Assembly (NCBI GenBank): GCA_015143295.1
Contig: CM026565.1
Coordinates: 25,738,052 to 25,802,051, forward strand
DNA length: 64,000 nucleotides
From: Tetracentron sinense
Taxonomy: Eukaryota; Streptophyta; Magnoliopsida; Trochodendrales; Trochodendraceae
Direction of reading: 5' to 3'
Shown here: positions 7,271 to 59,756 of the stretch, one piece after another
Layout: the number at the start of each line of letters is the position of its first letter
Numbering within the stretch: position 1 is the first letter of the stretch
Program-made: the position numbers and the translations under genes
Notes under the pieces: model-generated
Seen by the model: the letters and a program-made list of their open reading frames with translations, nothing else
Told to the model about the DNA's origin: nothing
The model's database searches: none

Positions 7271-8128
7271 ATCTCTTTGGCTATTGTTAGAAATTGGTAA
7301 GCATGGTAGAACTCAGTTTCTGCTTTGCACAACAAAGTGGCTCAATTGGACGTAAACCTGGCATACCATGGATGATCAAAGACACTATGGAATTGATTGA
7401 TGGAGGTCTAAGAACTCCATTAAGATACTCAACTGATATTGGGTCCACGTCTGATGGAGAGCCCATTTGAATGATTATGAGGCCTAGTCTCATTACTACG
7501 ACCACGTCCACATCCTCTTGTTGGATGATACAATTTCCAATCCGAATATAATGTCATAGATGATGAAAGTAGTGGGCGTTGTATGAAATTGGAGCAATGT
7601 TTGCTCATGAACCAAGATTCAAGAGCGCAACTCAAAAACATTAATGCGCTCATTGCAAGCATTAGTAGACCATGGTCTAAAATATGATCCTAGATGGGAA
7701 CAAGGGCAGAAAAAATTTCGATCTTATTCAAATACCAGCCATAGGAGTGGATCCCTTCCAAAGGGTCTGGAGTTGCATTGTATGAACCTAAGTTGTTGCG
7801 TTGGAGATCCCATATTTCTCGTGAACTATTAAGACCAAAAGTTTGTGAAAGGTTTGAGTCAGTGAGAGTTGCATTAATGATATCGATAATGTATTGATCA
7901 ACACAATTCCATTCAATAAAAATCAAGGATAGGGGTGGCATCTTCAAGATAGATAGATAGGGGGGGTAATGTTACCACCAATATATCCAAACAGGTCTTG
8001 AAAGACCCAATTACAATGTAGCTTCCTTTTGCTAAGAAAGTAATTTATGCCGTCTAATTTATTGAGAGGAAAGGAACAATGTTTGTGGTATTAATGGTAG
8101 AAATTTGAGAAGATGTAGGGGAAGCCAT
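7270..8128 (-). pseudogene. Decayed Ty1/copia gag relic
   Basis: Read on the minus strand from an ATG at 8128. After a frameshift the sequence gives LHCNWVFQDLFGYI, matching the LL-GYIDG region of plant copia Gag. It then gives INATLTDSNLSQTFGL and REIWDLQ, matching the INATLS...SS-EVWD block of the Gag UBN2/retrotran_gag domain. Farther on an arginine- and glycine-bearing stretch (RGCGRGRSNETR) resembles the Gag linker before the zinc knuckle, but no intact CCHC motif remains. Several frameshifts and stops make it non-functional. No LTR or pol was recognised next to it. The unit 3 copy at 60880-61764 carries similar lesions, so decay predates the duplication. Confidence 0.65.
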
Positions 8129-8680
8129 GTCATTACCAGTTGGTTCTTACAATCGAGAGGGAAAGTGGCAAGATTAGCCATTGAAGACGATTGCTGGTAC
8201 ACTCAAAGGAAGAAGAGAAAAATGTAAGTTCTAGGGATATCACAATAACTTAGAAGTTCTCATACCATGTAAAACCAAAAGATAATGAAGAAGAGACAAT
8301 CATGATGATAAATCGCTTCGTCCTTTCAATGTGTTTATAATAATAGCCACGGAGATATATTTTTGGGTTGCTAAAATATTCGTCATGTGCTGATTATTTT
8401 TAATACAATTAGAAAATAAATTATTTCTCTTTGGGTTAGAAACCTTCAATTTTTAGAATTACTCGAATTCTCTACAATTTGACATAATCCATCAATACAA
8501 TAGTCTCCTTTAACTCTCAACCGTATTCCTTTTTTTTTGCTACAAAAAATGATAATTGCAACCTCCAGTATATGCATCACTCAATGTTTTACAAATTGAA
8601 CTGGTCAACAAACCATTAGAGACGATGTTCGGTCTAAAGTTGAATCATTTGGGTGGACAAATTGAATAGTAATATATATA

Positions 8681-8853
8681 GGGGATAGCTACAGTTCACG
8701 CGGTGCGTGAAGGTGGTAACTACCACCAAGAATTTTTATAACTCTATAATTCCTTAAAAATAAGAGTATTATACGTCATTGTGTAACCTTTTAAAAGCCA
8801 CAAATTTTGAATCCTTTCCAATTTTTAAGAACCCAAATTTTTGAAACCACTCA
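8681..8853 (+). mobile_element. Left terminal repeat of a truncated Mutator-like MITE
   Basis: The segment starting GGGGATAGCTACAG after an ATATATATA run matches the left inverted repeat of the element seen complete in unit 2 (30203 to 36208). Here, as in unit 3 (62318-62490), the right end is missing and sequence jumps at CCACTCAT to a TATC microsatellite. It is therefore a deletion derivative. Confidence 0.6.
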
Positions 8854-9574
8854 TATCTATTTATCTATCTAAGTTATGTTTCTTCTACCTACAACTTAAA
8901 TCCTACAATATATTTTCTCTTCTCGTTCTACAAAAATTCCTCTTCTACAACTCCGAATGCAATTGCCAATGGTAAGCAATGGCTGATGATGGTGCTGCAA
9001 TAGATGACAGAGAGGATGATGATTGCAACAAAAGAAAATGGTGGAGGATGAAGAAATCAGTCTGATCAATTCTTTCTCTTTTCCTTCTACCACTCTCTCC
9101 CTCCTTATAGTCTCTATCATTGTCTCTCCTCATATTTATATCAAAAGCCCCAACTCATTGATTGGATGGTCAAAATCTTCTCCTTTTCATTCTTTGAAAG
9201 ACCCTAACCCCCTTTTTTCAACAACATGAAAAAATGAACTCCAAAATTTGATTTGTTTGTTAAAAAACCATAAATTGCTTTTTTTTTTCTTTACTCTATT
9301 TTTAATGGTCAAAATGGTTGGAGAAGATGAAACAATTGTACATCTATATTTTGATCACATACCCAAGCAGTTCATCGGACGATCGAATCATTTTAACGAT
9401 CCAACAGTTTGAACACCCTATTTGAACAATTTTAACTTTTTTGAGTGGTCTTTTACTTGGAAAGGTTTTCACGTGTTTGAAATCCATTGATCGTCAAGGG
9501 TGACGGTGCAACCATCTAGTGAAGTTCGGGTTTAAAAGCATTACAGTCACTATCATCATCATAGATAATGCTAC

Positions 9575-10526
9575 ACTACTGGGAGATCAGCCACTTATTG
9601 ATCTTGTGTCGAACATTTATAACCTTAAATGCACAAAATGACCCCAAATGTTCATCAATAGTTCTCAAAACCTTTTGTGATCCACAGGGATTCTCTTGCT
9701 TTTGTATAGATGAAACAACATCCTAGCTAATTTGTGGGAACCATTGAATGCTTTTTGTGTATATTACCTATGGCTTGTAGAGGATCACCTATGGCTTGTT
9801 GTTTATGGGTAACGATAGACTTGAGGCAATTAAAGGAGAGGACCCCATTAGCGGAAGACCATAGTTCGAAATTGACCCCAATTACTATAAATTCAAAAAT
9901 AAATTATAGTTCGAAAAACAGAAGCAACAACCAATCTTAACAAAACATGAACTGGAGATGATACTGATATATACGAACCTTTCCGTCGTGGCAAAGGAAA
10001 AATGAGTTTCTACTTCTGGCGACAATGGAATAAACTCTCTCAGACACGAGAGCCTTAACAGAGCGAACCCATTCTTTCTCATCATTGTTGTCAATGCCTA
10101 GTTGGCATCTTTTCCTGAACCTTCTCTCGTTCTCTGTTACGTGGAATTAGATGTGGAATTTCCCCTACCTGAGTTAGGATTCAGAGCGGCTGCAAGAACG
10201 TTGCTAGCGTCGGAGAAATGGGGATGTTGCCGGAGGAACAGAGAGTCAAGATGGAAATTGAAAGGGAAAATCCAGAAATTGTGGGAAAGGTATAAGAAAG
10301 AAAGAAGGAGAAAGAAAGAGATAGAAATGAGAGGGTTTCGAATAAGTGCATGGTGAGAGGGAAAAGAAACGACGGTCATGGACTGTTGTTGTTTATGACA
10401 ATAGTTTACCACCATTTAGAGCCGCCATTTTAGGCGTTAGGCCTTCGATATATAATTTAACGATGGCTGACTGTCGTTTTTAGCTCAAAATAAACATAGT
10501 GTTTTTTTTGGCTTTTTCAGGTAGTG
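9575..10526 (-). mobile_element. CACTA-family terminal fragment, CGACGGT subterminal type
   Basis: The plus strand ends at 10526 in TTTTTCAGGTAGTG, a CACTA terminus read on the minus strand as CACTACCTGAAAAA. Inside it (10360-10500) are repeats such as AACGACGGTCATGGAC and CGATGGCTGACTGTCG. Farther in comes CT-rich leader-like DNA on the minus strand. The left boundary is tentative: CACTACTGGGAG at 9575 could be the other end, but I find no matching 3-bp target duplication. Copies lie at 37378-38335 and 63225-64000. The open frame at 10102-10356 and its antisense are not recognised and are probably leader sequence. Confidence 0.5.
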
Positions 10527-14444: not shown

Positions 14445-15214
14445 ATATCCCCCCTCAAGTTGAGCTGGGTGAAGGCCCGGACATTCAACTTGGACGCCAA
14501 AAATTGGAGAGAGTGACGGGGAAGACTTTTGGTGAAGATGTCAGCAACTTGGAGATCAAAGGGAACAAATTGGATGCGAAGCTGATTTGATGCAATCTTC
14601 TCTCGAATGAAGTGGTAGTCGAGCACTATATGCTTGGAACGAGCATGGAAGACCGGATTGGAGCTCATATAAATCGTACTTTGATTGTTACAAAATATCA
14701 CCGAAGACATAGGGAGATAGACCTGGAGTGCACGAAAAATGAAAGTGACCCAAGTGATTTCGGAAGTACCATGTGCAAGACCTCGATACTCTGCTTCAGC
14801 ACTAGATCGAGACACAGTAGCTTGCTTTTTGGCACTCCAAGAAATCGGATTTCGTCCCAAGAAAAGAGCAAAACCAGAAGTCGAATGACGCATGTCAGGA
14901 CAACTAGCCCAATCAGCATCAGAGTAACCCATAAGCGAGAGCTGAAAGTCGGCATAGATCTGAATGTCGTGATGGAGGGTACCCTTAACATATCGTAGAA
15001 TACGCTTAACTGCTTGATAATGGTCTGTTGTGGGCGCGTGCATGAACTGGTACACAGAATTGACACTAAATGACAGATCCAGTCTAGTTATAGTAAGGTA
15101 CTGAAGGGCATCAACTATACTATGATAGTGAGTGACATCAGAAAAGGGAGTGCCTTCGTTTGTGAGTTTGTGACTAGTGACCATTGGAGTGGACGGAGGT
15201 TTAACTCCATCCAT
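14228..15214 (-). pseudogene. copia RNase H and end of reverse transcriptase
   Basis: The 328-residue frame begins at MDGVKPPSTPM, the end of the RT connection region, and continues through DALQYLTITRLDLSFSVN and AVKRILRYVKGT into RNase H with YSDADWASCPD, SWSAKKQATVSRSSAEAEYR and ADIFTKSLPRHS. The canonical CDNQS motif of copia RNase H reads CNNQS here, so a conserved aspartate is lost. The frame runs on into the LTR and stops at 14228. It is out of frame with the upstream RT because a short deletion near 15240-15260 removed part of the LFLSQ-KYA region. Confidence 0.9.
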
Positions 15215-16311
15215 TTGTACTCGTTGAAGAAGCTCAGTGGTATACTTGGACCTTGTGTTGCAGATACCACTTCAATACCAAGACAGTAGTGCAGTAGTCC
15301 TAAATCTTTCATAGCTAACTCACAACTAAGTTGCTGAATGAAGGATTGAAGAAGCGAGGAGTTGCTGCCAGTGAGAATGATGTCATCAACGTACACAAGT
15401 AAGATCATGGTGCCACTAGAGTTGTGAACCGTGAACATGGAGCAATCAGCATGACTATGGATGAAGCCAACGTCAAGAAGAAAGTTGCTAAACCATTCAA
15501 ACCAAGCATGTGGTGCTTTTTTTAAGCCATACAAGGCTTTGTTGAGGTGACACACATGGTGGGGATGAGAGGCATCAGAGTAGCCAGGACGTTGATCCAT
15601 ATACACTTCTTCTTGCAAACACCCATGCAAGAAGGCATTTATGACATCGAGTTGTCGTATTTCCCACCTATGTATGGTTACTAAGGAGAGGACCAACCGA
15701 ATAGTAGCAGGTTTGACAACAGGACTGAAAGTTTCATCATAGTCAAGACCGTGCATCTGAGAGTAGCCCTTGGCCACAAGTCGAGCAATGTATCTTTCCA
15801 CCGTGCCATCAGCCTTAAGTTTGGTTTTGTAAATCCAACGACAACCAATAATATTCATGCTAGGAAGACGAGGAGTGAGAGTCCAAGTCCGATTCTGATG
15901 AAGATCTGCCATCTCTTCATCCATTGCGGCAAGCCATTGGGGATATTTTGCAGTGGATTTAAAACCACGGGGTTCCTCGATACAAATAAGTGCCTCAAAA
16001 AAATGAAGATGAGCCTCTGGGAGAGAGCTGGAAGTGCGTGGCAGAAGTTGATGCTTGGTAGTAGCCTTGTCCTTGGATCGTGTGATCATAGGATGAGAGT
16101 TAGGGGGATCTATAGGTAACTCAATAATAATTTGTCCAGCAGGGATGTCAAGAGCACTTGTAGTAGAACTTGGCTGGGCAAGAGAGTTCCTCTGAGCATT
16201 GGGATTGACCTTGGTAATGGAGCATGCAGGCAGTTCGATAGAGCTAGACTCAAGAGATGTGGGCGAAGCAGGAGGAGCAACAGCCGAGCTAGTGCATTCT
16301 GACGAATCCAT
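15115..16311 (-). pseudogene. copia reverse transcriptase
   Basis: This 398-residue frame carries the copia RT core. The domain starts around residue 120 with the PQWLAAMDEEMADLHQNRTW region, followed by WIYKTKLKADGTVERY, ARLVAKGYSQ, DYDETFSPV, QLDVINAFLHG and LYGLKKAPHAWF. The catalytic YVDDIIL is present. The first 100 residues are the serine- and proline-rich spacer between integrase and RT, ending in MITRSKDK. An in-frame stop at 16315-16317 separates it from the integrase end. The tail after SATQG is frameshifted. Confidence 0.9.
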
Positions 16312-16314
16312 GGA

Positions 16315-30202: not shown

Positions 30203-30678
30203 GGGGATAGCTACAGTTCACACGGTGCGTGAAGGTGGTAACTACCACCAAGAATTTTTATACCCTATAATTCCTTAAAAATAAGGGTTTTATACATCAT
30301 TGTGTAACCTTTTAAAAGCCGCAAATTTTGAACCCTTTCCAATTTTTAAGACCCCAAAATTTCGAAACCACTCATGTCTCCTCATCTTCTACCTTCCTTT
30401 ATTCTTCTTTGTTTCATCCATTTTGATGAACACAACCTTTGTTTGGAAGAGACAGAAAAGAGATATCCTCTTAGATCTCCATTGCAGGAGGGAGAGAGAG
30501 ATAGAGAGAGTGTATGCCTATGGTAAACCTCGTTTTCTAGGTCTCCTCTCAAATCTCCATTGCAGAAAAAAAAACAGAGAAGCAACCAAGAAGGGAGAGA
30601 GAGAGAGAGAGAGAGAGAGGTATGAAAACAAAATGGTTTCTGATGAATGATGAAATTTCAAATTTGGGGTGTCAGGTC

Positions 30679-30795
30679 TGATGAAGGAGACTCCAAGTCC
30701 ACGCCCTCTACTCTACAGCCGTCTCCACACATTGCAAGCTAAGCAACTAATTGGTATCTTGTGGGAATAGTAAGATTGTAGGAGGATATCGTATC
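30679..30795 (+). repeat. Forward fragment of LTR, first 117 bp
   Basis: Identical in order to 35468-35584, starting TGATGAAGGAGACTCC and ending GGATATCGTATC. It forms the outer left end of the insertion next to the AGGTC target duplication. Confidence 0.9.
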
Positions 30796-31309
30796 AAGAG
30801 AGCTAAGCTCTGATACCATGTAGAAAAATAAGAAGAAGATGAAGAGAGAAGAGAAAACGTGAGTTGCTCTTGAAAGAGGGTAGGCGTTCACTATTCAAAA
30901 CGTGAATTACACCACCCTACTCCTTTTGTATATATATGAAAGGATTACAATAAACTAGGAAATTTCTTTATCATAGAATAGGAAACTTTCCAATAGACTA
31001 GGAAATTTCCTTAACATAGACTAGGGAACTTTCCCATAAAATAGACTAGGAGACTTTCTTAATACAAAATAGGAAACTTTCCTATACAATAGAGTAGGAG
31101 ACTTTCTTAATACAAAATAGGAAACTTTCTTAACATAGAATAGGAAACTTTCTCAAGCTCTCAAACTAGTGAACGCATGTGTTGCCTCTTGGGATACGAT
31201 ATCCTCCTACAATCTTACTATTCCCACAAGATACCAATTAGTTGCTTAGCTTGCAATGTGTGGAGACAGCTGTAGAGTAGAGGGCGTGGACTTGGAGTCT
31301 CCTTCATCA
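30796..31309 (-). repeat. Inverted primer site (30796-30818) and inverted complete LTR (30819-31309)
   Basis: AAGCTCTGATACCA at 30805-30818 is the reverse complement of the initiator tRNA-Met primer site. It is followed by TGTAGAAAAATAAG to CTTCATCA, the reverse complement of the full 491-bp LTR. An LTR in this position would normally be in forward orientation, with the primer site on its gag side. Confidence 0.9.
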
Positions 31310-31325
31310 AGACAAAGTTATTTAC

Positions 31326-33140
31326 ATGAGCAGGGGTCTTGGACAACGGTACAATATTTTGGTTACTTCCATGCTTGCAAAACCCCCCTTCCCAACCTAT
31401 TCCCAGTTTGTCACAGCCGTCCAAAGCTATGATTTAAGGATGAAAAATATGGAGCCCGAGCCAAAACCAATTGATCATAGTATGGCATTCTTTGGGCAAC
31501 GCTCCAATAGGGGACCGAATAATGGTCCACGTAATTTTAATCCTGGATTTAATGGAGGTGGTAGAGGAAACAATGGGTACTTTAATGGTGGTCGCAATAG
31601 TGGCAGAGGAAGGGGTGGCTACAATGGTCCAAACGCTAATGGTGGATTCAACTCACGTGGTCGTGGTTTTGCACCAGCCGGCCAACAAGGGTTTCGACCC
31701 TTTAATCAAAGCTTCAATCAAAATTTTAGACCACCACAACCGAATCAAGGATTTGGTCAACAACTTGGGCAAGGTAATCAGTTCAATGGTGGTAATCAAT
31801 TTCATGGTTCTAACCCCAAGCCTGCAGGTACCCCTCCTGAGGGACAACCACCCATAGGATCTCAAGGAAATCACCCTGCCCAGAATGAATGTCAAATATG
31901 TGGCCGTAGAGGCCACTCTGCAATTCGGTGCTGGTATAGGTGGGACTTCTCTTATATGGCACAAGATGAGATGCCACAGGCACTAGCTTCGATGACCTTG
32001 AATGAACCACAAGATCCTAATGTCTACTTGGACACTGGAGTGAGCGAACACATGACCAATGATCCAGGTAAATTAATCAACTTGATTCCATATTCTGGGT
32101 CTAATAAAGTTGTTATTGGTGATGGTTCACATTTAAATATATCTCATGTTGGGACTACATCTATTCATTCTAGTTTGGGAGAGATGAAATTAAATGATGT
32201 TTTGGTAGTACCTGAGCTGCATAAAAAGTTGCTTTATGTGAGTCAGCTAGCTAAGGATAATTGTTGCACTATTGAATTTACTGACTATGGCTTTTGTATT
32301 AAGGATCGAGCAACGGGCAGAATTTTGGCAACAGGGAGTAAAAAGGGAAACTTGTATGCCTTAGATGGAGATGCTGCTGCTGCCCTAGTAGCAGTAAGAT
32401 CGGGAAAGGCACCAGAAAATATTTGGCATCAACGTTTAGGACATCCCAATTCTAAATTATTGCAGTTTTTGAATTCTCAAAAAATAATTGATGTTAGTTC
32501 TTGGTTAAGTAGTCCTAGAATTTGTGAGAGTTGTCAGTTGGGAAAGAGCTGTAAGCTTCCTTTTTCGTTGAGTAATAAAAAAGCTCTTGTTCCTCTTACA
32601 AAAATTCATTGTGATTTGTGGGGACCTACTCCTGTTGCTTCTTATCAAAACATGAGATATTATGTTGTTTTTGTCGACGATTACTCTAGATTCACTTGGA
32701 TTTATCCTCTCAAAAATAAATCTGATTTTTATGATGCCTTTCGGAAATTTCAGAAATTGGTAGAAAATCAGTTTTCCAAGAAAATTAAAATTTTTCAGAG
32801 TGATGGTGGTGGGGAGTTTCAGTCTAAGAATTTTATTAACCATCTGGAAAATTGTGGTATTTTGAGACAGATGTCTTGCCCAGGAACCCCAGAGGAGAAT
32901 GGTGTTGTTGAAAGAAAACATCGACACATTGTTGAGATGGGATTAACATTACTTTTTCACTCCAAGCTGCCTAAGAGTTTATGGGTTGAAGCTTTTCTTA
33001 CAACTGTACATCTGATTAATAGATTGCCTTCTACTGTCATTGGTATGGAAACACCATTCTTTAAATTGTATGGAACTCAGCCGGATTATTCTTCCCTGAA
33101 GATATTTGGATGCAGATGCTTCCCCTATTTACGAGATTGA
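31326..33140 (+). pseudogene. copia gag (partial), protease and integrase
   Basis: The 604-codon frame opens in mid-gag (RYNILVTSMLAKPPFPTY, VQSYDLRMKN), so the N-terminal Gag half, and presumably the true start, are missing. A glycine- and asparagine-rich linker follows, then the zinc knuckle CQICGRRGHSAIRC near residue 189. The protease site is VYLDTGVSEHMTND near residue 236, where D-T-G is kept. The integrase head is WHQRLGHPN near 367 with CESCQLGKSCKLPF. The DDE core is HCDLWGP near 428, FQSDGGGEF near 492 and EENGVVERKH near 523. It ends at one TGA after CFPYLRD. The same frame continues directly into the next entry, so a single nonsense codon breaks the polyprotein. Confidence 0.92.
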
Positions 33141-35531
33141 GCTACAACTAAATTCCAACCCAAGTCTTATCCATTCATCTTTGTTAGATATAGTCTCATG
33201 CACAAAGGCTTCCGGTGCTATTACCCCCCATCTCGGCGAGTTTTTCTCTCTCGGCATGTTGTGTTTGATGAGTCTGTTCTTCCCTATACAGATCCTCCAT
33301 CCTCTTTGGCTTCATCCAAGGACTCCTTATCTATCACCACTTACTCAGATTTCTTAGAGTGGAATTCTTTACCACAAGAGGTTGTTGAGCAAATTTTAGG
33401 GAATCAAGACTTTATAGGGGATGGGCTACTTCTTGTCCCCGTCAATATATCTCCTAAATCGATTGGAGTTCTTGAGGGTACAACACCTATTGGTGATATT
33501 TCGGTTCCTGCTAGTGAGGGGGAAAAGCCTATTGTTGAGAGTTCAAATTCTATTGTTGAGGGGGAAAAGTCTATTGCTGCCACTCCATGTACTGATATTT
33601 TTGTTTCTTTTCCTGATGATCCTGACACTTCTTCCACTTCTATTGCAGTTGATCAGGTTTCTAATGAGTTAATTGAACAAAACACAGACACTTCTGAAGA
33701 GGCTAATACCAATCAAAAGGCCACAACTGTGTTTGATGAGACTGGGTTACAGGGCACCTTTGTTATTGATCTTGGTCTCCCAAGTGAGGGATGCCCCCCT
33801 CCTGAAGTGGTGATACCCCCTCCCCCCTCCATTGTTGGTGATCATCCTCATTACACTCGGTCTAAAGCCAAACTCAAGGCATCTTCCACACTTGCTCTCA
33901 CCGCCTCCCATGGCGTCCTTCATGAACCTCGCAACATCAAAGAAGCTATTCAGAGTCCCCACTGGATTACTGCTATGAAGGAGGAATTACAGGCCCTTGA
34001 CCTCAATGCCACTTGGACTCTTGTGCCTCGAACAATTGATATGAATGTAGTTGGTTCTCGGTGGGTGTATAAGACCAAACTCAAATCGGATGGTTCCATT
34101 GATCGATACAAAGCTCGCCTTGTTGCTAAGGGATACAACCAAAAAGAGGGTATCGATTTCGATGAAACTTTTAGTCCTGTGATCAAGCGTACTACTATTC
34201 GCATTGTCCTGTCTCTTGCTGTCATACGTAATTGGCCTATTAGACAACTTGATGTGAAAAATGCCTTTTTACATGGTTTTCTTCGTGAAACTGTTTACAT
34301 GGAACAACCACCTGCCTTTGTTAATCCTCACTTTCCTAATCATGTCTGTCATCTCCAAAAGACCATCTATGGACTTAAACAAGCCCCTCGAGCTTGGTTT
34401 GACCGTTTCAGTATGTTTTTGCTCTCTGTTGGCTTTGTGTGTAGTAAGGCTGATTCCTCTCTCTTTGTTCTTCATTGTTCTCTTGGTGTTATTCTATTGT
34501 TGCTATATGTTGATGATATTATCGTTATTAGTGATAATACATCTCTTCTATCTCGTTTGATTGTCAAATTAAGTTCTGAATTTGCAATGAAGGACCTCGG
34601 TCCTCTCCATTATTTTCTTGGCATCGAGGTACAACCCTTCTCTGGCGGTATTTTTCTCTCTCAAAATAAATATGCTCATGACATCCTGTCTCGTACTGAT
34701 ATGCTCCTTAGTAAGTATGCCAGTACTCCTCTAGCACAGAAACACAACTTACATGCTTCTTCGGAGAACTCTATAGATGGCACCAATTATAGAAGCATTG
34801 TTGGTGCTCTGCAGTACCTAACATTGACCCGACCAGACCTCTCATATGCTGTCAATCTAGTATGTCAATTTATGAATGCTCCAACTACACTTCATTATCA
34901 AGCTGTTAAAAGGATTCTTCGATATCTCAAAGGAACCAGTCACTATGGCATTCGGATTCTTTCTCAATCATCTATGAACATGTATGCCTTCTCAGATGCA
35001 GACTGGGCAGGTTGCCCTGACACAAGGAGGTCTACCACAGGCTATTGTGCTTTTCTAGGTTCCAATTGCATCTCATGGGCAGCTAAGAAACAACCTACTA
35101 TAGCCCGGTCCAGTGCAGAAGCTGAGTACCGTGCTCTAGCCTCCACTACTGCCGAGTTAACTTGGATTTCCTACATCTTGCGTGACATTGGGGTGTTCCT
35201 TGCCAAACCTCCAGTTTTATTTTGTGATAATCTTAGTGCTCTCTATTTGACAGTGAATCCTGTGTTTCATGCTTGCACAAAGCATATTGAACTTGACTAT
35301 CACTTTGTTCGTGAGAAAGTAGCCTTGGGGGCACTTGTTACTCAGTTTGTGTCTTCCTCTGGACAACTTGCAGATATTTTCACTAAAGCCTTGCCTAAGG
35401 CTTCTTTTCAAAGTTTGCGAGCCAAGCTAGGTGTGGTCTCTACACCACCCTCCAGCTTGCGGGGGAGTGATGAAGGAGACTCCAAGTCCACGCCCTCTAC
35501 TCTACAGCTGTCTCCACACATTGCAAGCTAA
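33141..35531 (+). pseudogene. copia integrase end, reverse transcriptase and RNase H
   Basis: In the same frame as the upstream part, restarting after the TGA; the first ATG is at 33198. Order: integrase end (GFRCYYPPSRRVFLSRHVVF), a spacer with tandem EGEKPIVESS-like repeats, YTRSKAK, then RT with ATWTLVPRTIDMNVVGSRW, KARLVAKGYNQ, QLDVKNAFLHG, IYGLKQAPRAWF and the catalytic YVDDII near residue 438. RNase H follows with FSDADWAGCPDTRRS near 598, ARSSAEAEYRAL near 640 and FCDNLSAL with its aspartate kept. The last 20 codons extend into the LTR and stop at 35531. Apart from the TGA the pol is intact, which fits a young insertion. Confidence 0.92.
35455..35467 (+). other. Polypurine tract
   Basis: GCTTGCGGGGGAG lies directly before the LTR start at 35468, as expected for plus-strand priming. 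It shows that the right LTR is in normal orientation for a 3' LTR. Confidence 0.8.
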
Positions 35532-35958
35532 GCAACTAATTGGTATCTTGTGGGAATAGTAAGATTGTAGGAGGATATCGTATCCCAAGAGGCAACACAT
35601 GCGTTCACTAGTTTGAGAGCTTGAGAAAGTTTCCTATTCTATGTTAAGAAAGTTTCCTATTTTGTATTAAGAAAGTCTCCTACTCTATTGTATAGGAAAT
35701 TTTCCTATTTTGTATTAAGAAAGTCTCCTAGTCTATTTTATGGGAAAGTTCCCTAGTCTATGTTAAGGAAATTTCCTAGTCTATTGGAAAGTTTCCTATT
35801 CTATGATAAAGAAATTTCCTAGTCTATTGTAATCCTTTCATATATATACAAAAGGAGTAGGGTGGTGTAATTCACGTTTTGAATAGTGAACGCCTACCCT
35901 CTTTCAAGAGCAACTCACGTTTTCTCTTCTCTCTTCATTTTCTTCTTATTTTTCTACA
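35468..35958 (+). repeat. Right LTR (491 bp) of the inverted-arm copia element
   Basis: TGATGAAGGAGACTCC to CTTATTTTTCTACA. The middle (about 35625-35830) is made of about eight degenerate copies of a 22-26 bp unit with AAGTTTCCTATTCTAT. It is followed at once by a primer site, which is abnormal for a 3' LTR. Confidence 0.92.
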
Positions 35959-36098
35959 TGGTATCAGAGCTTAGCTCTCTTGATACGATATCCTCCTACA
36001 ATCTTACTATTCCCACAAGATACCAATTAGTTGCTTAGCTTGCAATGTGTGGAGACAGCTGTAGAGTAGAGGGCGTGGACTTGGAGTCTCCTTCATCA
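35959..36098 (+). repeat. Primer site after the 3' LTR plus inverted 117-bp LTR start
   Basis: TGGTATCAGAGCTTAGCTC at 35959 has the 12-base core complementary to initiator tRNA-Met, where a 3' LTR should border host DNA. At 35982-36098 the sequence is the reverse complement of the first 117 bp of the LTR, ending CCTTCATCA at the AGGTC duplication. The short joint AGAGCTTAGCTCT is itself an inverted repeat. Confidence 0.9.
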
Positions 36099-36168
36099 AG
36101 GTCTTTCAAAAGTTATAAATTACTTATAATACCCTTCTTTTTAAGGAATTATAGGATTATAAATGTCT

Positions 36169-36721: not shown

Positions 36722-36766
36722 TCTATCTATCTACCTACCTACATATCTATCTATCTATCTAAGTTA
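36722..36766. repeat. TATC/TACC microsatellite
   Basis: Repeats of CTAT and CTAC. Counterparts are at about 8855-8872 and 62491-62512 with fewer units. Confidence 0.85.
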
Positions 36767-38335
36767 TCCTTCTTCTACCTACAACTTAAATCCTACAATA
36801 TATTTTCCCTTCTCCTTCTTCAAAAATTCCACTTCTAATACTCCAAATGCAATTGCCAATGGTAAGCGATGGCTGATAATGGTGCTGCAATAGATGACAG
36901 AGAGGATGATGATTGCAACAAAAGAAAATGATGGAGGATGAAGACATTAGTCTGATCAATTCTTTCTCTTTTCCTTCTACCACTATCTCTCTCCTTATAA
37001 TCTCTATCATTGTCTCTCCTCATAGTTATATCAAAAGCCCAACTCATTGATTGGCTAGTCAAATTCTTCTCCTTTTCATTCTTTGAAAGACCCTGACCCC
37101 TTTTTTTCAACAACATGAAAAAATGAACTCCAAAATTTGATTTGTAATTTAAAAAACCATAAATGGCTTTTTTTTTTCTTAACTCTTTTATTAGTTTTAA
37201 ATGGTCAAAATGGTTGGAGAAGATCGAACAATAGTACATCTGTATTTTGAGTGGTCTTTTACTTGGGAAATTTTTCACGTGTTTGAAATCCATAGAGCAT
37301 GAAGGGTGACGGTGCAACCTTCCAGTGAAGTCCAGGTTTAAAAACATTACATTCACTATCATCACCATAGATAATGCTACACTACTGGGAGATCAGCCAC
37401 TTATCGATCTTGTGTCGAACATTTATAACCTTAAATGCACAAAATGACCCCAAATGTTCATTAATAGTTCTCAAAACCTTTTGTGATCCACAGGGATTCT
37501 CTTGCTTTTGTATAGATGAAACAACATCCTAGCTAATTTGTGGAAACCATTGAATGCTTTCTGTGTATATTACCTATGGCTTGTAGAGGATCACCTATGG
37601 CTTGTTGTTTATGGGTAACGATAGACTTGAGGTAGTTAAAGGAGAGGACCCCATTAGCGGAAGACCATAGTTCGAAATTGACCCCATTTACTATAAATTG
37701 AAAAAAAAATTACAGTTCGAAAAACAGACACAACAACCAATCTTAACAGAACATGAACAGGAGATGATACTGATATATACGAACCTTTCCATCATGGCAA
37801 ATGACAAATGAGTTTCTACTTCCGGCGACAATGGAATGAACTTTCTCAGACACGAGAGCCTTAACAGAGCGAACCCATTTTTTCTCTTCATTTTTGTCAA
37901 TGCCTAGTTGGCATCTTTTCCTGAACCTTCTCTCATTCTCTATTACATGGGATTAGATGTGGAATTTCCCCTACTTGAGTTAGGATTCGGAGCGGCTGTG
38001 ACAATGTTGCTAGCATCGGAGAAATGGGGATGTTGCCGGAGGAACCAAGGGTCAAGAGGGAAATTTAAAGGGAAAATCCAGAAATGGTGGGAAAGGTATA
38101 AGAAAGAAAGAAAGAAGGAGAAAGAAAGAGATAGAAATGAGAGGGTTTCGAGTAAGGGCATGGTGAGAAAGAAAAGAAACGACGGTCATGGACCGTTGTT
38201 GTTTATGACAGTAGTTTACCACCATTTAGAACCACCATTTTAGGCATTAGGCCTTCAATATATAATTTAACGATGGCTAACTGTCGTTTTTAGCGCAAAA
38301 TTAACGTAGTGTTTTTTTGGCTTTTTCAGGTAGTG
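36767..38335. other. Unit 2 copy of the region with the CACTA terminus
   Basis: Colinear with 8870-10526. It lacks the 75-bp stretch around TCATCGGACGATCGAATC that units 1 and 3 share. It ends in the CACTA terminus TTTTTCAGGTAGTG at 38335. No gene recognised. Confidence 0.6.
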
Positions 38336-39248
38336 AAAGCTACCAAGATTATGAGAGGGAGCAACATATGTAGAGACCACCCATTAATTGGGGACAATCT
38401 ATTACTAGGGCCAAGGAAGGAGATGGATAAAGTCAGCATATATGCTACAACAAGGTAAGTTCATATTTTGAAGATAATTTTGGATTAAGGATTCAATTAG
38501 ACTTGGCAAACATGAGAAATACCTCTCTCTTAATTTTGAAGATAACAAACTATGGAACAAATCAAGCTTAGAAAAAATATCATTTCTCCTACATCCAAAT
38601 AACAAGCAAGGATACATTCATAATATCTCACTTTAGATTCTTCCTATGATATGTATTTGTAGCTATTGAATTACAGTGTCTATTCTTGCCACCCTTCTTC
38701 CGAATACTGAATGGTTAAGGTTGAGTTTTCAAATTTAATTTGGTCATTTAGTGGCAAGGAAAGGTCCCTAGACTCAACGATCTCTTTGTATAAGATAAAG
38801 TTTATATGAACTTTTCCTGAGCCTTGAACTTATAAACAATATAGCAACCATGTGACAATGGTGTGTCTAGGGTCTTGGAACATGGTTTTGGGACCAAATG
38901 AAATTGAACAAAATGATCTTTAAAATAGTCACTCAAATGGCATTGAATCTATGATTTAGAGAAACGATACTGTCTGGCAAGGGAATAAAAATCACCTCAT
39001 TTTCGGATATAATAGGACACTGAACAACATCTTGAAGGTGAATCCAAATTTCTTGAATTTCAAAAGACTTCCCTAGAAGAAAATTTGTCAATGACCTTTA
39101 TTGAGAAGGAGCTACCTCTATCACATTTTGATTCACATGTGCGAATGTTAAATGTGCACATTTTGATTCGCAATAGTCTTTCCCACTATCATTCTTCAAT
39201 TGTAAGGTTAAATCTGCTACACAATATTTCAAATCCCATGGTATTGAC
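38336..39248. other. Non-coding unit sequence, no gene seen
   Basis: Colinear with 10527-11551, but with one copy of the 84-bp repeat instead of two. Confidence 0.5.
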
Positions 39249-39811
39249 TAGGGGTGGTTATTGAAAAAAATGTTCGTGAACTACTCGTGCTCGGCTCGTT
39301 AAAAGCTTGAGTATAGTTTGTTTATTTAGTAAACGAGCCGAGCTTGAACAACGTTTTTGAACTCATTTAGTAAACGAGCTGAGCTTGAACACACCCCTGC
39401 TCTGCTCGATAAAAGCTTGGTTCGATTATATATACATATTAACCTACTAAAATATTTACAATATACTTAGTTCATTTAATTATTAAAATTAAGAATATGT
39501 ATTATATACTAGTAAAGATTTATAGTATATAATGTATTTTATATGATAAGAATACCATTTATATAATTGCATTCTTATACTAAAATTTTAGTTAACACCG
39601 TGATTTCTTTGCCTAGGATAATAAAGTGAATTTTTTACCTAATATAAATAGCTATATCCAACAAAACAAGCTTGTGAACTACTCGAGCTAGGATTGAGTT
39701 CGGCTAGAAAAGCTCGAGCTCGTTATTTAATAAACGAGTCATGCACGTTTAATAAACGAACAAGCTTGAACACTCCACTATTCGGCTCTGCTCGGCTCTA
39801 TATCACCCCTA
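39249..39811. mobile_element. hAT-like MITE, unit 2 copy
   Basis: TAGGGGTGGTTATTG to TATATCACCCCTA, flanked by GTATTGAC at 39241-39248 and 39812-39819. It is better preserved than the unit 1 copy and defines the TAGGGGTG inverted ends. Confidence 0.85.
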
Positions 39812-39820
39812 GTATTGACC

Positions 39821-39989
39821 TTTTTTTTTTTTGGTAAACTCAATCATACCACAAGGCAATGACTGAAGGCAAAGACAAGGGAATACTCACACCACCCAAG
39901 CAAACACACACACACACACCACACACATGCAGCCCATGTAAGCTTCACCCTAGAGCTCCTCAAAACGGGTACCAACCGTTTGAGGCGCC
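39821..39989 (-). mobile_element. SINE-like insertion, minus strand
   Basis: Absent from unit 1, where GTATTGACCTAACC is continuous. The insert starts on the plus strand with a T tract (a poly(A) tail on the minus strand), and AGTATTGA is repeated on the far side (39990-39997). Size of about 170 bp, a tail and a target duplication fit a SINE or other short retroposon. It contains a CA microsatellite (39903-39930). I cannot identify the pol III boxes with confidence. Confidence 0.5.
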
Positions 39990-39999
39990 AGTATTGAGC

Positions 40000-41990
40000 T
40001 AACCAACTTATAAACAGAAACAAAATTTGATGTATATTTAAAACCAAGAAGTTATATGTTGCTGGTATTCTACACCATGACAGCAATTTAGAAGAACCAA
40101 AGGCAATAAAATGGTAGTAGAACTGATATAATGGTTGTAGTATTGCAAACCGCATCAATAAAGTAAAAGAATTGAAAGAATATAAGTATAGTTACCTGAA
40201 TAAGTAATGTGTCAGTTCATGCATTTCCAATTTAACCTTCAACTCATATTATAGCCCCAACTCAATAATACCAGTGTTAATCTTGCACACTTATAGATTG
40301 TCCCAAGCCTACAATGGTTATCTTCGTCTTCTTTCTCCTTCTATCTCTTCTGGCTTCATTCTACAACAACAACAAGGATACGCCCAGCGTTAATCTTTCC
40401 ATCTTTGTTTGGACAGTAAAGGAAATTCCTAAACTTTGGAGATAAAGTTGTTCTCCACAATATTTATAGATGCATTGATTTTTTACTGTTGCTATTAGCT
40501 TATCATATGGAGAAGGATTTATGTCCCCTCTAATTAGGTGCAACAAAGTGGCCCAAAGGAGGGTCACATGTCTAGTGCGGTTGAGAGTGTACAAGATGGC
40601 CCGTAAGAATTGGCGATGAAAGGTTCCCACATGCCCTAAAAGGATCTGGATTCGTGCAGTGTCTTGGCTAGGGTCCATGCCAAACACCCAACCCCTTGGA
40701 TGGAGAAACAACAAGAATGATATATAGGAAAGAATATACATTTCTATACTAAAATATGTAAATGCTAAATCATCAAATGGGGAAACGAGAATGCCTTCTG
40801 AAATCAAAGTCAATGGGTTTCACAAGTGATTATAGCAAGAAAATAGAAAGGAGCATGCAGTAAGAAAACCATAGATTGTTGGGATTTTCCAAGTGATTAT
40901 AACAAGGTAACGCTAAGGAGCTTCTTTGAAATAATGCAATAAGAAAATGCTGGTGATTTTCCCTAACACTTCACAAAAAGAAAAAAGAGTATTTAGAACA
41001 AATCAACCAATGCCGCACCTTCACAAAGAAAGAAAAAAAAAAAAACAAGCTAACTCCATAAAATACAGAACCCCAGAAGCTTAAATGTGTAATAATATCT
41101 GCAAATTGAAGTAACTTCTAGCCTGTCCAAAGGGTTTTTCTTCTGTAAAAGCTTGTTTCATAATAGAAGGCCAGTGAAGATTCCTTCCAGAATATCATGG
41201 CCATCTGATCAGTATCTGACCACAAACACCGAAATAATGGAAGCAAAAAAAAAATGTAGAAATTTTCTATATTTACTTATGTCCATCAAAAACCCAATTA
41301 GAAAAAGGGTCTACTCCTCCTGAACCCTTTTCATAATCATGCAAAAAAAAAAAAAAGGCATTTATTAGCAAAAAACACTACTAAATCGTTAGAAACTATT
41401 TTTGAAAAAAAAAAAAGATGTCCGATTCCGGTGGCCGGAAGCTGACAGAAAGAGAAGTGAGCACGCACCGGCAACTGCATACTCTTATATCATTGCCTCG
41501 TGTGTGCTCACTCTCTTCTGTCAGTCTATCAGAAAATTTCACCCAAAAAACATTCCCAGAATGGAAATATATATAAAAAAATATTTAAAAAATCTGAAAC
41601 CACAGACAACCCCAATAAAGACACCCACCACGATTCAGAGTCTTTTAGGGTTTATGGAACCCAACAAAAGGAAAGCCACGAACTACTTATCCCTTCATGC
41701 ATTAAAGTACTCGATGAATCCAGCTGCCAGCACTGCCGGGAGAGGGGGGGTTCAAGGAGTGAGTGGTGGTAGTGGTAGGTGAGATTTTCTGACCGTTGGT
41801 TTAATTAATGGTGGACCAGTTGTTGTTTATAGTAAGTTGTGCATGTGCGACTGCATCAAATAGGGAAACAGGATAAAGAGCCACCTTTTTAGCATGGAAA
41901 ATGATTAAATTACAGTCACACCCTAAGTTTCAAAAAAAAAAAAAAATTAGAATTAAAAATAAATAAATAAATAAATATATATATATATAT
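40000..41990. other. Non-coding unit sequence ending in an AT microsatellite
   Basis: Colinear with 12110-14046. The minus-strand 150-codon frame at 40361-40813 is the longer version of the one in unit 1 and has no recognisable domain. Confidence 0.5.
41654..41782 (+). CDS. Conserved small ORF of 42 codons, paralogue of 13655-13783
   Basis: Starts MEPNKRKATNYLSLHAL and ends GVSGGSGR, the same length as the unit 1 frame. An upstream in-frame extension exists (from 41402) but begins in a poly(A)-derived lysine run and is not shared with unit 1, so the shorter start is preferred. Function unknown; it may be a chance frame. Confidence 0.3.
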   Translation: MEPNKRKATNYLSLHALKYSMNPAASTAGRGGVQGVSGGSGR

Positions 41991-42255
41991 TGAAAGGATT
42001 TGAGAATCCTTGGATAGTATTGCTAGAGATTGAAAAGCCATAGCTTGTAACGTGCACAGCTGAAGCAGCTCTCTTGAATTAGAAGCTTATTCACTTTGGT
42101 ACTAATTTATAAACTTCCAGTATGTAGCAATTACAATATGTGAATTTTAGAAAGAAATATACGCCGTTCCTTAATCACAGCCAAGCCGTATGGGTTTCTC
42201 TATTCTTGAGGTATCAAATCCCTTGAGATCTTCCAAAAACTTGATTGAAGGAGAA

Positions 42256-42591
42256 TTAGTAACCTTCCGTATGTGTTGAGTGACGGGAAAGACTTTTGGT
42301 GAAGATGTCAGCAACTTGGAGATCAGAAGGAACAAATTGGATGTGAAAATGATTTGATGCAACCTTCTCCCGAATGAAGTGGTAGTCGAGCTCTATATGC
42401 TTGGAACGAGCATGGAAGATCGGATTGGAGCTCATATAAATCCCACTTTGATTCTCACAAGCACGAAAGATGAAAGTGACCCAAGTGATTTCGACAGCAG
42501 CATGTGCAAGAGCTTGATACTCTGCTTCAGCACTAGAACAAGACATAGTAGCTTGCTTTTTGGCACTCCAAGAAATGAGATTGCGTCCCAA
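42256..42591 (-). pseudogene. copia RNase H remnant
   Basis: SWSAKKQATMSCSSAEAEYQ and ADIFTKSLSRHS are recognised. The CDNQS site is lost: FRACENQSGIYM shows an in-frame deletion of about 13 codons relative to unit 1. The N-terminal DADW part is in another frame because of a frameshift near 42800. Confidence 0.8.
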
Positions 42592-42796
42592 GAAAAGAGC
42601 AAAACCAGAAGTGGAATGACGTGTGTCAGGACAACCAGCCCAATCAGCATCAGAGTAACCCGTAAGCGTGAGGTGAGAGTTGGCATAGAACTGAATGCCA
42701 TGATGGAGGGTAGCCTTAACATATCATAGAATACGCTTAATTCCTTGATAATGGTCTGTTGTGGGCACGTGCATCAATTGGCACACGGAATTGACA

Positions 42797-43669
42797 CTAA
42801 ATGACTTCTGGTCTGGTTAAAGTAAGGTACTGAAGGGCACCAACTATACTGCGATACTGAGTGACATCAGAAAAGGTAGTGCCTTCTTTTGTGAGTTTGT
42901 GACTAGTGACCATCGGAGTGGATAGCGGTTCAACTCCACCCATTTGTACTCGTTGAAGAAGCTCAGTGGCATACTTGCATTGAGATAAGAACAAGCCTTG
43001 TGTTGTAGATACCACTTCAATACCAAGAAAGTAGTGCAGCAGCCCTAAATATTTCATAGCGACCTCACAACTAAGTTGCTGAATGAAGGATTGAAGAAGC
43101 GAGGAGTTGTTGCTGGTGAGAATGATGTCATCAACGTACACAAGTAAGATCATGGTGCCACTAGAGTTGTGAAGACTGAACATGGAGGAATCAACATGAC
43201 TATGGATGAAGCCAACGTCAAGAAGAAAGATGCTAAACCGTTCAAACCAAGCACGTGGTGCTTGTTTTAAGCCATACAAGGCCTTGTTGAGGTGAAACAC
43301 ATGGTGGGGATGAGAGGCATCGGAGTAGCCGGGAGGTTGATCCATAGACACTTCTTCTTGCAAACACCCATGCAGGAAGGCATTTTTGACATCGAGTTGT
43401 CGTATTTCCCACCGATGTATGGTTGCTAAGGAGAGGACCAACCGAATAGTACCAGGTTTGACAACAAGACTTTAAGTTTCATCATAGTGGAGACCGTGCA
43501 TCTGAGAGTAGCCCTTGGCCAAAAGTCGAGCCTTGTATCTTTCCATCGTGCCATCAGCCTTAAGTTTGGTTTTGTAGATCCAATGACAACCAATAATATT
43601 CATGCTAGGAAAACGAGTAGTGAGAGTCCAAGTCCGATTCTGATGAAGAGTTACCTTCTCTTCATCCAT
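42797..43669 (-). pseudogene. copia reverse transcriptase remnant
   Basis: WIYKTKLKADGTMERYKARL, QLDVKNAFLHG, LYGLKQAPRAWF and YVDDIIL are present. An in-frame stop replaces the F of DETFSPV (after HYDET, 43472-43474). Unlike the unit 1 copy, it keeps the LFLSQCKYATELL segment, so that unit 1 lesion came after the duplication. It ends in a frameshift after LTRPEV. Confidence 0.85.
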
Positions 43670-44278
43670 TGTAGCAAGCCATTGGGGATATTTTGCAGTG
43701 GATTTAAAACCACGGGGTTCCTTGGTATAAATAAGTGCCTCAAGAAAATGAAGATGAGCCTGTGGGAGAGAGCTGGAAGTGTGTGGCGGAAGTGGATGCT
43801 TGGTAGTAGCCTTGTCCTTGGATCATGTGATCATAGGATGAGATTTAGGGGGATCAATAGGTAACTCAATAATAATCTGTCCACTAGGGATGTCAAGAGC
43901 ACTTGTAGTAGAACTTGACTGGGCAAGAGAGTTCCCCTGAGCATTGGGATTGACCTCGGTGAAGAAAGAAGAAACTAACTCACAGGTTTTTCTCTAGAGA
44001 TCAGAATGCTCTGATACCATGAAAGGATTTGAGAGTCCTTGGATAGTATTGCTAGAGATTGAAAAGCCAAAGCTTGTAACGTGCACAACTGAAGCTCTCT
44101 TGAATGAGAAGCTTATTCACTTTGGTACTAATTTATAAACCTCCAGTATGTAGCAATTGCAGCAATTACAATATGTGACCACCCATAAGGAATCGAGATT
44201 AAGCTAGATAATAAATGGTGAAGAAAGAAGAAACTGACTCACAGGTTTTTCTCCAGAGATCGGAATGCTCTGATACCA

Positions 44279-44673
44279 TGAAAGGATTTGAGAGTCCTTG
44301 GATAGAATTGCTAGAGATTGAAAAGCCAGAGCTTGTAACGTGCACAACTAAAGAAGCTCTCTTGAATGAGAAGCTTATTCACTTTGGTATTAATTCATAA
44401 ACCTCCAGTATGTAGCAATTACAATATGTGAGTTTTAGAAAGAAATATACACAGTTCCTTAATCACAACCAGCCGTGTGGGTTTCTATTCTTGAGGTATC
44501 AAATCCCTTGAGATCTTCCAAAAACTTGATTGAAGGAGAATTAGTAACCTTCCTTATGCGTTGAGTACCATGGATATCTCTAGAATTAGTTGTATCTTTA
44601 ATCAAGGAAACGTCCTCCTTGAGTGGGGCAACTGTAATAGCCACTGACATGGATGGTAGTGGAGGACTATCTT

Positions 44674-44675
<2 letters not shown>
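44279..44675 (-). repeat. Complete 5' LTR of the deleted copia copy
   Basis: 397 bp, TGAAAGGATTTGAG to CTATCTTCA, the same length as in unit 1. Followed by a TA microsatellite (44676-44716). Confidence 0.9.
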
Positions 44676-44716
<41 letters not shown>

Positions 44717-56822: not shown

Positions 56823-58361
56823 ATGTCATTATAATACACACACACACACACATAACACTAAAGCCCCACATGCACGGCCTTTCCTATTCACAGTGCCAAA
56901 AAAATAAGGTTAAAAGTTTAGGGTCATCTTGGACTTACCTCAAATCATTGGAGCCATTCTGGGAAAAATCCCTTAACATTGTTGATACATCAAAAGATGC
57001 ATGGGATCTGGGACATATAATGTAATAGATTGAGGGAATGCCATCTATATCCAACTGGTTACATCATTAACAGAAAAATCTCCACTTAACGTGGAAGAGT
57101 GGACAAAACAAAGTCACTTGCTCCTGAATTCATACAAAAACCAAATTTGGGAAACAAATATGTATATATAACATCCTTGATAAAGCTTTGATCCCTCCAT
57201 ACAAACCAAAGATGATTACAGAATTCCTTCATCCCCACTTTCAAAGATTAAGGCATCATAAATTATAGAGAAAACACAGGACAGAAACACATCTATCCAT
57301 GTATATATGTATGCATAGGCTAGTGGTTAGAGGGTGAAGAAAAATTTTGTACCCAGGTTCGTGCTTATCAATACTCGTGAACTTTACCAGCCCACAAAAT
57401 TTGGCATCCATATCATGCATCTTTAAAATAAATTTTCAAGGATAATGATCCAACAACAAACTATAACCAGTAACCACTTAAGTTCAAAAGGCCACACTAT
57501 CTTTATTAAAGTAACCAAAGGTACCTTTATTTTGCAACTAATTTCACATATTAATTGCTCCTAAAACAATAGGGTGCCTAAAATGAGAAAAAATTAAAAG
57601 TGCAAACAGAATTTTATGCTTTTCCTTTTTCTACAAAAAATTGAATAACTTTTTTATGTAATTTTTGGCATCTTTGACATATATAGGGGGCAGGGGTTCC
57701 TTTGAAAGAGTGCCCTTGCAACCTTGGTTGTGTAGGAGGATTTTAGCCTTCAGAGTGGGTAATTGTTTCATTTTGAGTAGTGGTTGGTTATGTTGTTTGG
57801 GTATTCGATCATCAAAAAAAAAAAAACATATAATTAATGTAAATTTTGGCATCTTTGACATATAAATGAAGCAAATATGGCTCGAGAAACAAATTAAAAG
57901 CGCAAACAAAATTTTATGCTTTTCCTTTTTGTAAAATAAATTGAACAAATTTTTTTAATGTAGTATTTAACATTTTTGACATATAACTGAAGCAAATATG
58001 CCTCAATTTATTTGGAAAACAAACAGAATTATTTTCAGAAGAAGACTCCGCTCTATCAAAAACCAATTAATCACGGCTCAACATAGTCAAAACACAACAA
58101 ATGTACCTAGTTCTAGATCCACACTCCAACTTCAAGTATTTTTTGAATTGAAAATAACTAATAAGAGAATGTTGAACAATTGCTCCAACCTCAAACCCAA
58201 AATAAAAGATACATTATTAATGAATTACATGTAAAGTCATCACTCAAAAAGAAAGAAACATATAAATTGTTATAACTTATTAAGATTTGAATTAAAGGTC
58301 GTAACAACCTCTATGTTTGACTATGTTGGTAAATTACACCATACACAAGAGAGCTTTCTAA
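56823..58361. other. Non-coding unit sequence with CA microsatellite and SINE-like insert
   Basis: CA run at 56838-56851. The SINE-like insert at 57686-57826 has ACATATA on both flanks and a 12-A tail. No gene recognised. Confidence 0.5.
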
Positions 58362-58719
58362 GAGCATCTCCAACGCATAGTTAAAAGCCTTTGCCAAAGC
58401 TAAAATATAGCTTTGACCCAAAGATAACATACTCCAGCGCATAGTTAAAAGGATTGCCAAAAAATGGCTTTTGCCATTTCTCATGCCAAATATGGCGTGG
58501 GAAATGACAAAATTCATTTAATGCCATTTGATGTTGTGTGACCAATTGACCCTTCTTGTTTTTACACTTTTGTCATTGCCCCACAAAAAAAGCTTATTGA
58601 ATATAGAAATGGCTAGTGCACCATTGGAGCGTCAGTGCTAAATTGTAGTATTTTGGCACTGTAGTCGTGTCAAAAAATAGCTGACACTAAAAAAAATGGC
58701 TTTGCCACTGAAGATGCTT
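58362..58719. mobile_element. MITE with GAGCATCTCC ends, unit 3 copy
   Basis: GAGCATCTCCAACG to GATGCTT, flanked by TAA (58359-58361, 58720-58722). One terminal base has changed relative to the unit 1 copy. Confidence 0.7.
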
Positions 58720-59756
58720 TAAAGACCACTTCAAGTTAACAAAAAGGAACCTCTATTTGAAATTGTATCTGTTTTGAACAATTTGAAAATAGTGTTCCAT
58801 TATTAAGGAAAATCAAAAGCCAAAAAAAATATGAATATGGGGAATATTTGTCGGAAAATATAAATTGATAAATGCAGCATCATACCTTATCCCAAAAATT
58901 ATAATACGAGAAATTGTAAAAATTCAAAATGTCATCTAATTAAATGAAATAAATTAGCACTTGAGGGGATGTTGTAAAAAAATTCTCCATTCATTTCTAA
59001 AATCCACCAAAAAATTTGATCCATTAGAAATAGTATGGGAGGTAGCGACCAGTGAAATTTGGGTGAATCGGGTTGACTTTTTGGTAGAACCTCTAGGCTA
59101 TAGGCTATATCCCAACCCAACCCGAGTGCGCCCTTCAACCCGTATATATACATTTTACATGTAAGACATAATAACACACCATCAAACTCAGCTTGGATTG
59201 GGTTGACTAATGGCTCAACCCCAACTCCATTGGTACTTTGGCCAAGGTTGTGATTCTTGAACCCCAAGTTGAATAATCAAAACCCTTGGTACAATTAGGA
59301 TCATATCAATCTTGACCGAAGTTGCACCCAAAGTTGGAGGTATTTAGATTTTTCAACTTTAGTTTCTTGAAACCAACTTACTACCAAATTCCTTTCTAAA
59401 TCAAAATATTTTATTCAATATTCATTACTCATTTTTAATAAATTCACAAATATATCCGTTATTGAAAAGAAAATGATGACACTTTCACCATTATTGGAAA
59501 ATGATGATGCTTTCACCATTATTGAACTAGGCATGACCTATGAAGAAGGAAGGATGCTATTTGACCGCATTGCCTCCTCCATCCCATCCATCATGCACGA
59601 AAGGTCATGGCATACACAAGTTTCAACAGATTGTTTATAAGAAACAAAAATGGTCAGTTTAATTACCTGCTCTTAGTCACATTCTCAGAAAAGCAACTCT
59701 GAGGCCGATAGTCTTATGGAGATTGTAATCAAGCTAATTCTCCAGAACTAGGAATG

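Follow-up and report, generated by a model that had tools for sequence, protein, structure and literature searches.

Retrotransposons of the Ty1/copia type are bounded by direct long terminal repeats (LTRs), one end of the element being U3 and the other U5, with a primer-binding site (PBS) directly after the left LTR and a polypurine tract (PPT) before the right one. Here we describe a Copia element that departs from this plan, located in a stretch of 64,000 nt of Tetracentron sinense DNA (assembly GCA_015143295.1, contig CM026565.1, positions 25,738,052-25,802,051). We call this whole stretch the window, use its numbering throughout and refer to its element as C15. Its likeness to Copia lies in the order of its domains (gag_pre-integrase, rve, RVT_2), the PBS TGGTATCAGAGC, the PPT, a 5-bp target-site duplication (TSD) and normally arranged sister copies. 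However, its left LTR is inverted, U3 stands at both ends, the right LTR is followed by the PBS and leader, and gag is truncated.

Several described systems match parts of this arrangement. Autointegration of Ty1 was reportedly treated by Garfinkel in 2006. Autointegration gives nonproductive deletion or inversion circles (PMC2644782), and it has been inferred for the extrachromosomal circular DNA of several Magnaporthe LTR elements (PMC9694575). C15 resembles the retroviral and Ty1 products in having an LTR terminus joined to an internal site, but it is a linear product with two U3 ends, inserted in the genome. Complex template-switched LTR insertions of Triticeae (Sabot and Schulman 2007, PMC1950507) share with it aberrant strand switching, a 5-bp TSD and insertion as one unit; as described there, however, they are fusions of two elements sharing an LTR, and inversion goes unmentioned in the searched text of that paper. 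Truncated Copia insertions are also described from Arabidopsis mutants, all with two LTRs and two with clear TSDs (PMC10462705). In vitro, the integrase of human immunodeficiency virus 1 (HIV-1), which is not a Copia enzyme, can pair like ends, mostly with 5-bp TSDs (PMC8742673). Finally, DIRS-1 has inverted LTRs, as C15 does, together with internal complementarity to the LTR ends and a tyrosine recombinase (PMC5633606). Searches of open-licence literature brought up no description of a genomic U3/U3 Copia insertion.

Both ends of the element are U3

C15 is 5,420 bp long, with the ends TGATG on one side and TCATCA on the other. Its inverted repeats (30679-31309 and 35468-36098) measure 631 nt each and align without gaps, 627 positions being identical (99.4%) and 4 mismatched; between them lies a core of 4,158 nt. 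The pentamer AGGTC flanks the element at 30674-30678 and 36099-36103. A preliminary description of the stretch had reported inverted 631-bp arms with AGGTC on both sides, and this is borne out.

From the core outwards, each arm consists of a 491-bp LTR (TG..CA), the 12-nt PBS, an 11-nt leader (TTAGCTCTCTT) and inverted U3 from position 117 to position 1 (491+12+11+117 = 631). This assignment is based on comparison with C16, a normally arranged copy (locus L014) in which the order is LTR, PBS, leader, gag, pol, PPT, LTR, with the TSD GTATT. On the left, the outer U3 end (U3 positions 1-117) occupies 30679-30795 on the plus strand, its first base being the T of TGATGAAGG. It is followed by the leader and PBS, both inverted (minus strand, 30796-30818), and by a complete LTR, inverted with respect to gag-pol (minus strand, 30819-31309), whose U3 terminus TCATCA adjoins gag. 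The right side starts with TTGCGGGGGAG at 35457-35467 (plus strand), which from its position we take to be the PPT. As in other Copia elements it precedes the right LTR (35468-35958, 491 bp, normal orientation, plus strand). The PBS and leader are misplaced behind this LTR (plus strand, 35959-35981), and inverted U3 closes the element (minus strand, 35982-36098). C15 thus lacks the usual pair of direct LTRs, which would leave U3 and U5 at opposite ends, and it lacks a PBS directly after the left LTR: besides the one behind the right LTR, the PBS occurs only inverted, outside the left LTR.

At the switch point, the word GATACG is common to the normal leader (CTCTCTTGATACGG) and to the inverted U3 (CCTCTTGGGATACGA), where the inverted U3 of the right arm begins. 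A strand switch at this microhomology is supported by the sequence; the preliminary description had suggested a template switch at GATAC, a word one base short. It had also tied the joint to the short inverted repeat AGAGCTTAGCTCT. This hairpin is native leader, present in the normally arranged C16, and we reject it as the cause or product of the joint.

In the core of about 4.16 kb, a domain search finds gag_pre-integrase, rve and RVT_2 in Copia order: PF00665 (rve) lies in the first open reading frame (ORF) and PF07727 (RVT_2) in the second, so that integrase is upstream of reverse transcriptase. The first ORF (31310-33140, plus strand) holds gag, the Pol beta-barrel (BBD) region, gag-pre-integrase and the integrase core, and ends at an in-frame TGA (33138-33140), the single in-frame stop in pol. 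The remaining pol (33141-35456, plus strand) comprises an SH3-like part, the RVT_2 reverse transcriptase and an RNase H region, the last assigned by position only. Between 160 and 170 codons are missing from the start of gag (162 when aligned with P0002, 168 judging from the position in L014), and the remaining gag begins to align at residue 163 of a Shorea homologue. Here, at 31309/31310, the U3 terminus of the inverted LTR is joined exactly to an internal site of gag (TCATCA|AGACAAAG). Judging from its sequence, C15 would be a dead element, because the start of gag is missing and LTR, PBS and gag do not follow one another in a functional sequence.

DIRS-like elements are not known to make a target-site duplication. 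C15 has one, together with a DDE integrase domain (rve), no tyrosine recombinase family matches its two ORFs at E 0.001, and its plan is a non-replicating one. We rejected a DIRS-like element on the integrase domain and the missing recombinase match at this threshold.

The element was inserted as one unit

The host site of C15 lies within a tandem segmental duplication, and two element-free tandem paralogues on the same contig, L037 and L038, read across the join with one 5-bp site. L037 (GTGTCAGGTCTTTCAAAAG) has the site AGGTC and is 91.8% identical, the similarity stopping 28 nt to the right of the join. L038 (GTGTTAGATCTTTTGAAAG) has the diverged site AGATC and is 91.9% identical over 950 columns spanning the join, matching the window for some 780 nt on the right. 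Elsewhere L038 departs from the window, with a different sequence of about 2.8 kb lying some 170 nt left of the join. The occupied site reads GTGTCAGGTC[element]AGGTCTTTCAAAAG. Insertion duplicated 5 bp of target and cost the host no bases; the chance that a random pair of flank 5-mers would match here is about 0.0009. Because both paralogues lack the element and keep a single 5-bp site, they confirm that C15 entered as one 5,420-bp unit with a U3 terminus at each end and an integrase-type duplication, the integrase-like entry that had been proposed for it from the window alone.

The empty sites also bear on the idea that a normal element was altered after its insertion, by inversion or gene conversion. 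Arms that are 99.4% identical and a host locus that is a duplicated array would suit such a change. However, the right U3 terminus adjoins the TSD exactly, conversion without flank homology is not expected to put U3 at a border between U5 and host, and the misplaced PBS and leader are left unaccounted for; we hold this origin to be highly improbable. An assembly artefact in the form of a palindromic chimaeric read is harder still to credit. Such a read does not fit the exact TSD and the unoccupied sites, the unlike flanks, the 4 differences between the arms, or a second U3/U3 element (C6, below) assembled in three places. We rejected both explanations on the exact TSD and the unoccupied sites.

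The insertion is young, as was proposed earlier, because its arms differ at only 4 of 631 positions. With a substitution rate of 1.3e-8 per site per year its age would be about 0.24 million years, or more if the host evolves slowly.

The plan was found once and inverted U3 termini recur

With the left arm as query, a search of the T. sinense assembly itself (1.16 Gb, 1,479 contigs) returned 92 matches, and the full 631 nt were matched only by the two arms of C15. The first 16 nt of U3 have 25 exact matches in the assembly, every one in a locus already found by this search. A 901-nt pol probe matched copies at least 98% identical only at C15, C4, C16, C2 and C6 with its duplicates, among the 40 candidates scored out of 1,699, which makes this set a lower bound. 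The other close pol-bearing copies have layouts unlike that of C15. Several copies of its plan with different TSDs were not found in this assembly; C6 shares the U3/U3 ends but not the plan. Since the full arm occurs only at C15 among the 92 matches, the plan is found once in the genome and a proliferating family is not supported; we rejected a spreading family with inverted ends. An exact scan for the 35-base joint gave no match in genome_contigs, which covers prokaryotes and from which this genome may also be absent. The 20-base PBS-leader pattern had no match in viral_contigs.

The preliminary description had allowed for a hybrid family moving by means of inverted ends. A Copia lineage that inherits an inverted plan of the fold-back or DIRS-like kind, and moves in that form, would indeed account for symmetric 631-bp arms and a clean TSD. 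Yet only one locus among the 92 matches has the full arm, gag is truncated and pol carries a stop, neither ORF matches a tyrosine recombinase family at E 0.001, and C6, the other U3/U3 copy, has an unrelated architecture. Such a lineage is therefore most improbable.

Counting LTR matches of at least 92% from the left-arm search gives seven distinct close insertions; the second place of C6 and C398 are taken as duplicates of one C6 insertion and C679 as another copy of C10. Matches below 92%, such as C12 (72%) and C17 (83%), both direct-orientation LTR pieces, fall outside this count. Three of the seven follow the direct plan: C2 (TSD CCCCT), C16 (TSD GTATT) and C4, whose right end is cut and which has no TSD. 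The sister copies C2 and C16, with U3..U5 ends and TSDs, represent the normal plan of the family. The other four (C15, C6, C10 and C24) carry an inverted U3 terminus, a descriptive proportion in which the U3/U3 events with TSDs, two in all, are few. LTR-LTR differences amount to 0.3-0.7% in C2, C4, C6 and C15 and to 2.4% in C16. C2 also contains a 1.8-kb insert foreign to the family (L009 2877-4702), between 10-bp direct repeats (GCTCTGTCAT), perhaps a nested DNA transposon.

C6 has U3 at both ends and the TSD ATCTT in a layout unrelated to that of C15: ATCTT|U3(1-16), 15 nt of inverted pol, pol, PPT, LTR, A, LTR(1-306), inverted U3, TCATCA|ATCTT. It acquired its U3/U3 ends independently of C15. 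Its left end, U3(1-16) followed by 15 nt of inverted pol and then pol, reads as two successive switches. On the right, LTR-A-LTR(1-306) is followed by inverted U3 from position 183, with a small rearrangement before the TCATCA tip. The host repeat that C6 occupies has an unoccupied copy upstream in L012, with a single ATCTT, though this match is weaker than those for C15: beyond the join it covers no more than 14 nt of AT-rich DNA, of which 12 are alike. The assembly contains the C6 structure at three places, which lie in duplicated segments.

Two side observations concern these segments. Near the inverted-U3 tip (L013 4535-4578), a quasi-palindrome is now near-perfect (CTTGGAGACTCCAAG), a further small fold-back. 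Between L012 1501-6000 and L013 there is no mismatch and there are few gap columns over about 4.5 kb including the element; outside this stretch the duplicates differ by 0-7% per 250 bp, which suggests recent conversion or duplication.

In C10, LTR 1-191 is folded back to 174-16; a host repeat of 38 bp comes next, and then another piece of U3. The 38-bp host stretch lies on both sides of a 48-bp U3 fragment (L016 4544-4715). In C24, U3 1-37 is inverted and stands against gag and a fragment of LTR. In each of these two copies one U3 end is exact and a clean TSD is lacking. C13 (L026), an older relative with no match to the stretch used as pol probe, has an inverted U3 of 59 nt whose terminus forms a blunt joint with pol (TCATCA|CTTCCC). 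Inverted U3 thus runs to the U3 start or nearly so in all five loci, comprising the terminal bases in C15, C6, C24 and C13 and reaching position 16 in C10, and its terminus is joined bluntly to the body of the element at two unrelated points, gag in C15 and pol in C13. An exact 17-mer scan of the retrieved loci, which does not extend to diverged copies, found an inverted U5 terminus only within the whole inverted LTR of C15. Because other close copies also carry inverted U3, each in a different architecture, we conclude that the error recurs and that its product is not inherited as a family.

These joints could in principle have arisen from template switching alone, without autointegration, the integrase then using two U3 ends. 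The plus strand would snap back from leader to U3, making the right arm, while the minus strand, stopped in gag by broken RNA, would jump onto a different left LTR at its 3' end and so make the same arm again. The microhomology at the outer joint of C15 speaks for this, as do the fold-backs of C10 and C6, whose spans of 17 and 123 nt resemble snap-backs, and the gag-to-U3 switch in C24. On the other hand, the same GATACG switch would be needed on both strands, or else a copying step; switching by itself gives no account of why the right LTR is followed by PBS and leader; and the blunt joints of a U3 terminus to gag in C15 and to pol in C13 resemble strand transfer. We consider switching alone unlikely, though the strongest competitor to the explanation that we favour.

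A possible route to two U3 ends

Any explanation has to cover four facts: the inverted pieces are U3 and stop at or near its start, the joints show little homology, the PBS and leader follow the right LTR, and two U3 ends were used by an integrase-type reaction. We propose that C15 is a single dead insertion of an aberrant complementary DNA (cDNA) from a small Copia family, formed by U3 capping with probable autointegration, and we regard this as the probable explanation. Inside the particle, stray cDNA 3' ends would switch, at short homologies, onto plus-strand DNA that has the clean, PPT-cut 5' end of U3. Copying off that end would produce a TCATCA-OH terminus acceptable to integrase, in effect capping broken ends with U3, and two ends so capped could then be integrated together.

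For C15, the most economical order is probably the following. The 3'-OH of the left U3 would attack the plus strand of gag in a half-site autointegration, giving an inverted LTR followed by truncated gag-pol and the right LTR. The right LTR would then fold onto the inverted one, and its 3' end would copy the PBS and leader before switching at GATACG to U3 and copying to the U3 start. The arms of this stem-loop would copy each other and so become alike, and integrase would finally insert the U3/U3 DNA at AGGTC. The PBS and leader would thus stand behind the right LTR because its 3' end was extended over the inverted PBS and leader after autointegration; the U3 pieces, the low-homology joints and the two U3 ends would follow from copying onto the PPT-cut U3 5' end. 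The 5' end of the minus strand carries the tRNA primer, so that U5 would rarely serve as a cap.

Several points weigh against this explanation. The order of steps rests on one molecule. Template jumps from end to end, or ligations, would account equally well for the blunt joints U3|gag and U3|pol, and the 1-nt overlap where U3 meets gag does not tell these possibilities apart. A simple snap-back on the same continuous strand would overrun into PPT and pol; stopping exactly at the U3 start requires a template whose U3 5' end is free, and we assume such a template. C10 and C24, without a clean TSD, would illustrate capping at best, and not U3/U3 integration. Among older relatives (78-89% identical over the pol probe), the LTR piece is direct in 10 of 10 comparable loci, namely those with both a pol and an LTR match, whose listings were read side by side. 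Their LTR pieces are mostly from the U5 side, so that a short inverted U3 could escape and the control is of limited value; still, the evidence for a habit of inverting U3 is confined to the close copies and C13. Lastly, the HIV-1 assay, although its pairing of like ends speaks for the explanation, favoured U5 pairs over both U3/U5 and U3/U3 (PMC8742673).

As natural events preserved in a genome, the two U3/U3 insertions are evidence that a Copia-type integrase can insert DNA with U3 at both ends, twice in one small family, and each is backed by an unoccupied homologous site, strongly for C15 and more weakly for C6. More tentatively, U3 end-capping may be a recurrent salvage route of LTR retrotransposons, with an integrase that readily takes two U3 ends, U5 rarely serving and annotators missing the products; on present evidence we would not yet bet on this wider claim. 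It would turn "scrambled" LTR insertions into the outcome of a testable mechanism, with the directional prediction that inverted caps are U3 and not U5. LTR finders that require direct LTRs are expected to label such loci as fragments. If U3 capping is real, inverted-LTR insertions would be missed by annotators that seek direct LTRs. In addition, the 631-bp inverted LTR arms might form a hairpin and be a source of small RNAs against the family.

Neighbouring sequences in the window

The tandem segmental duplication that hosts C15 includes 4806-10357, 36742-44679 and 57960-64000 of the window, among other segments, and its long matching pieces are about 82-97% identical. More paralogous pieces, L037 and L038, lie upstream on the same contig. 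Two copies of the duplicated unit also contain remnants of another Copia family (RVT_2) on the minus strand, at 15118-16314 and 42800-43471, which are about 65-68% identical to the pol of C15.

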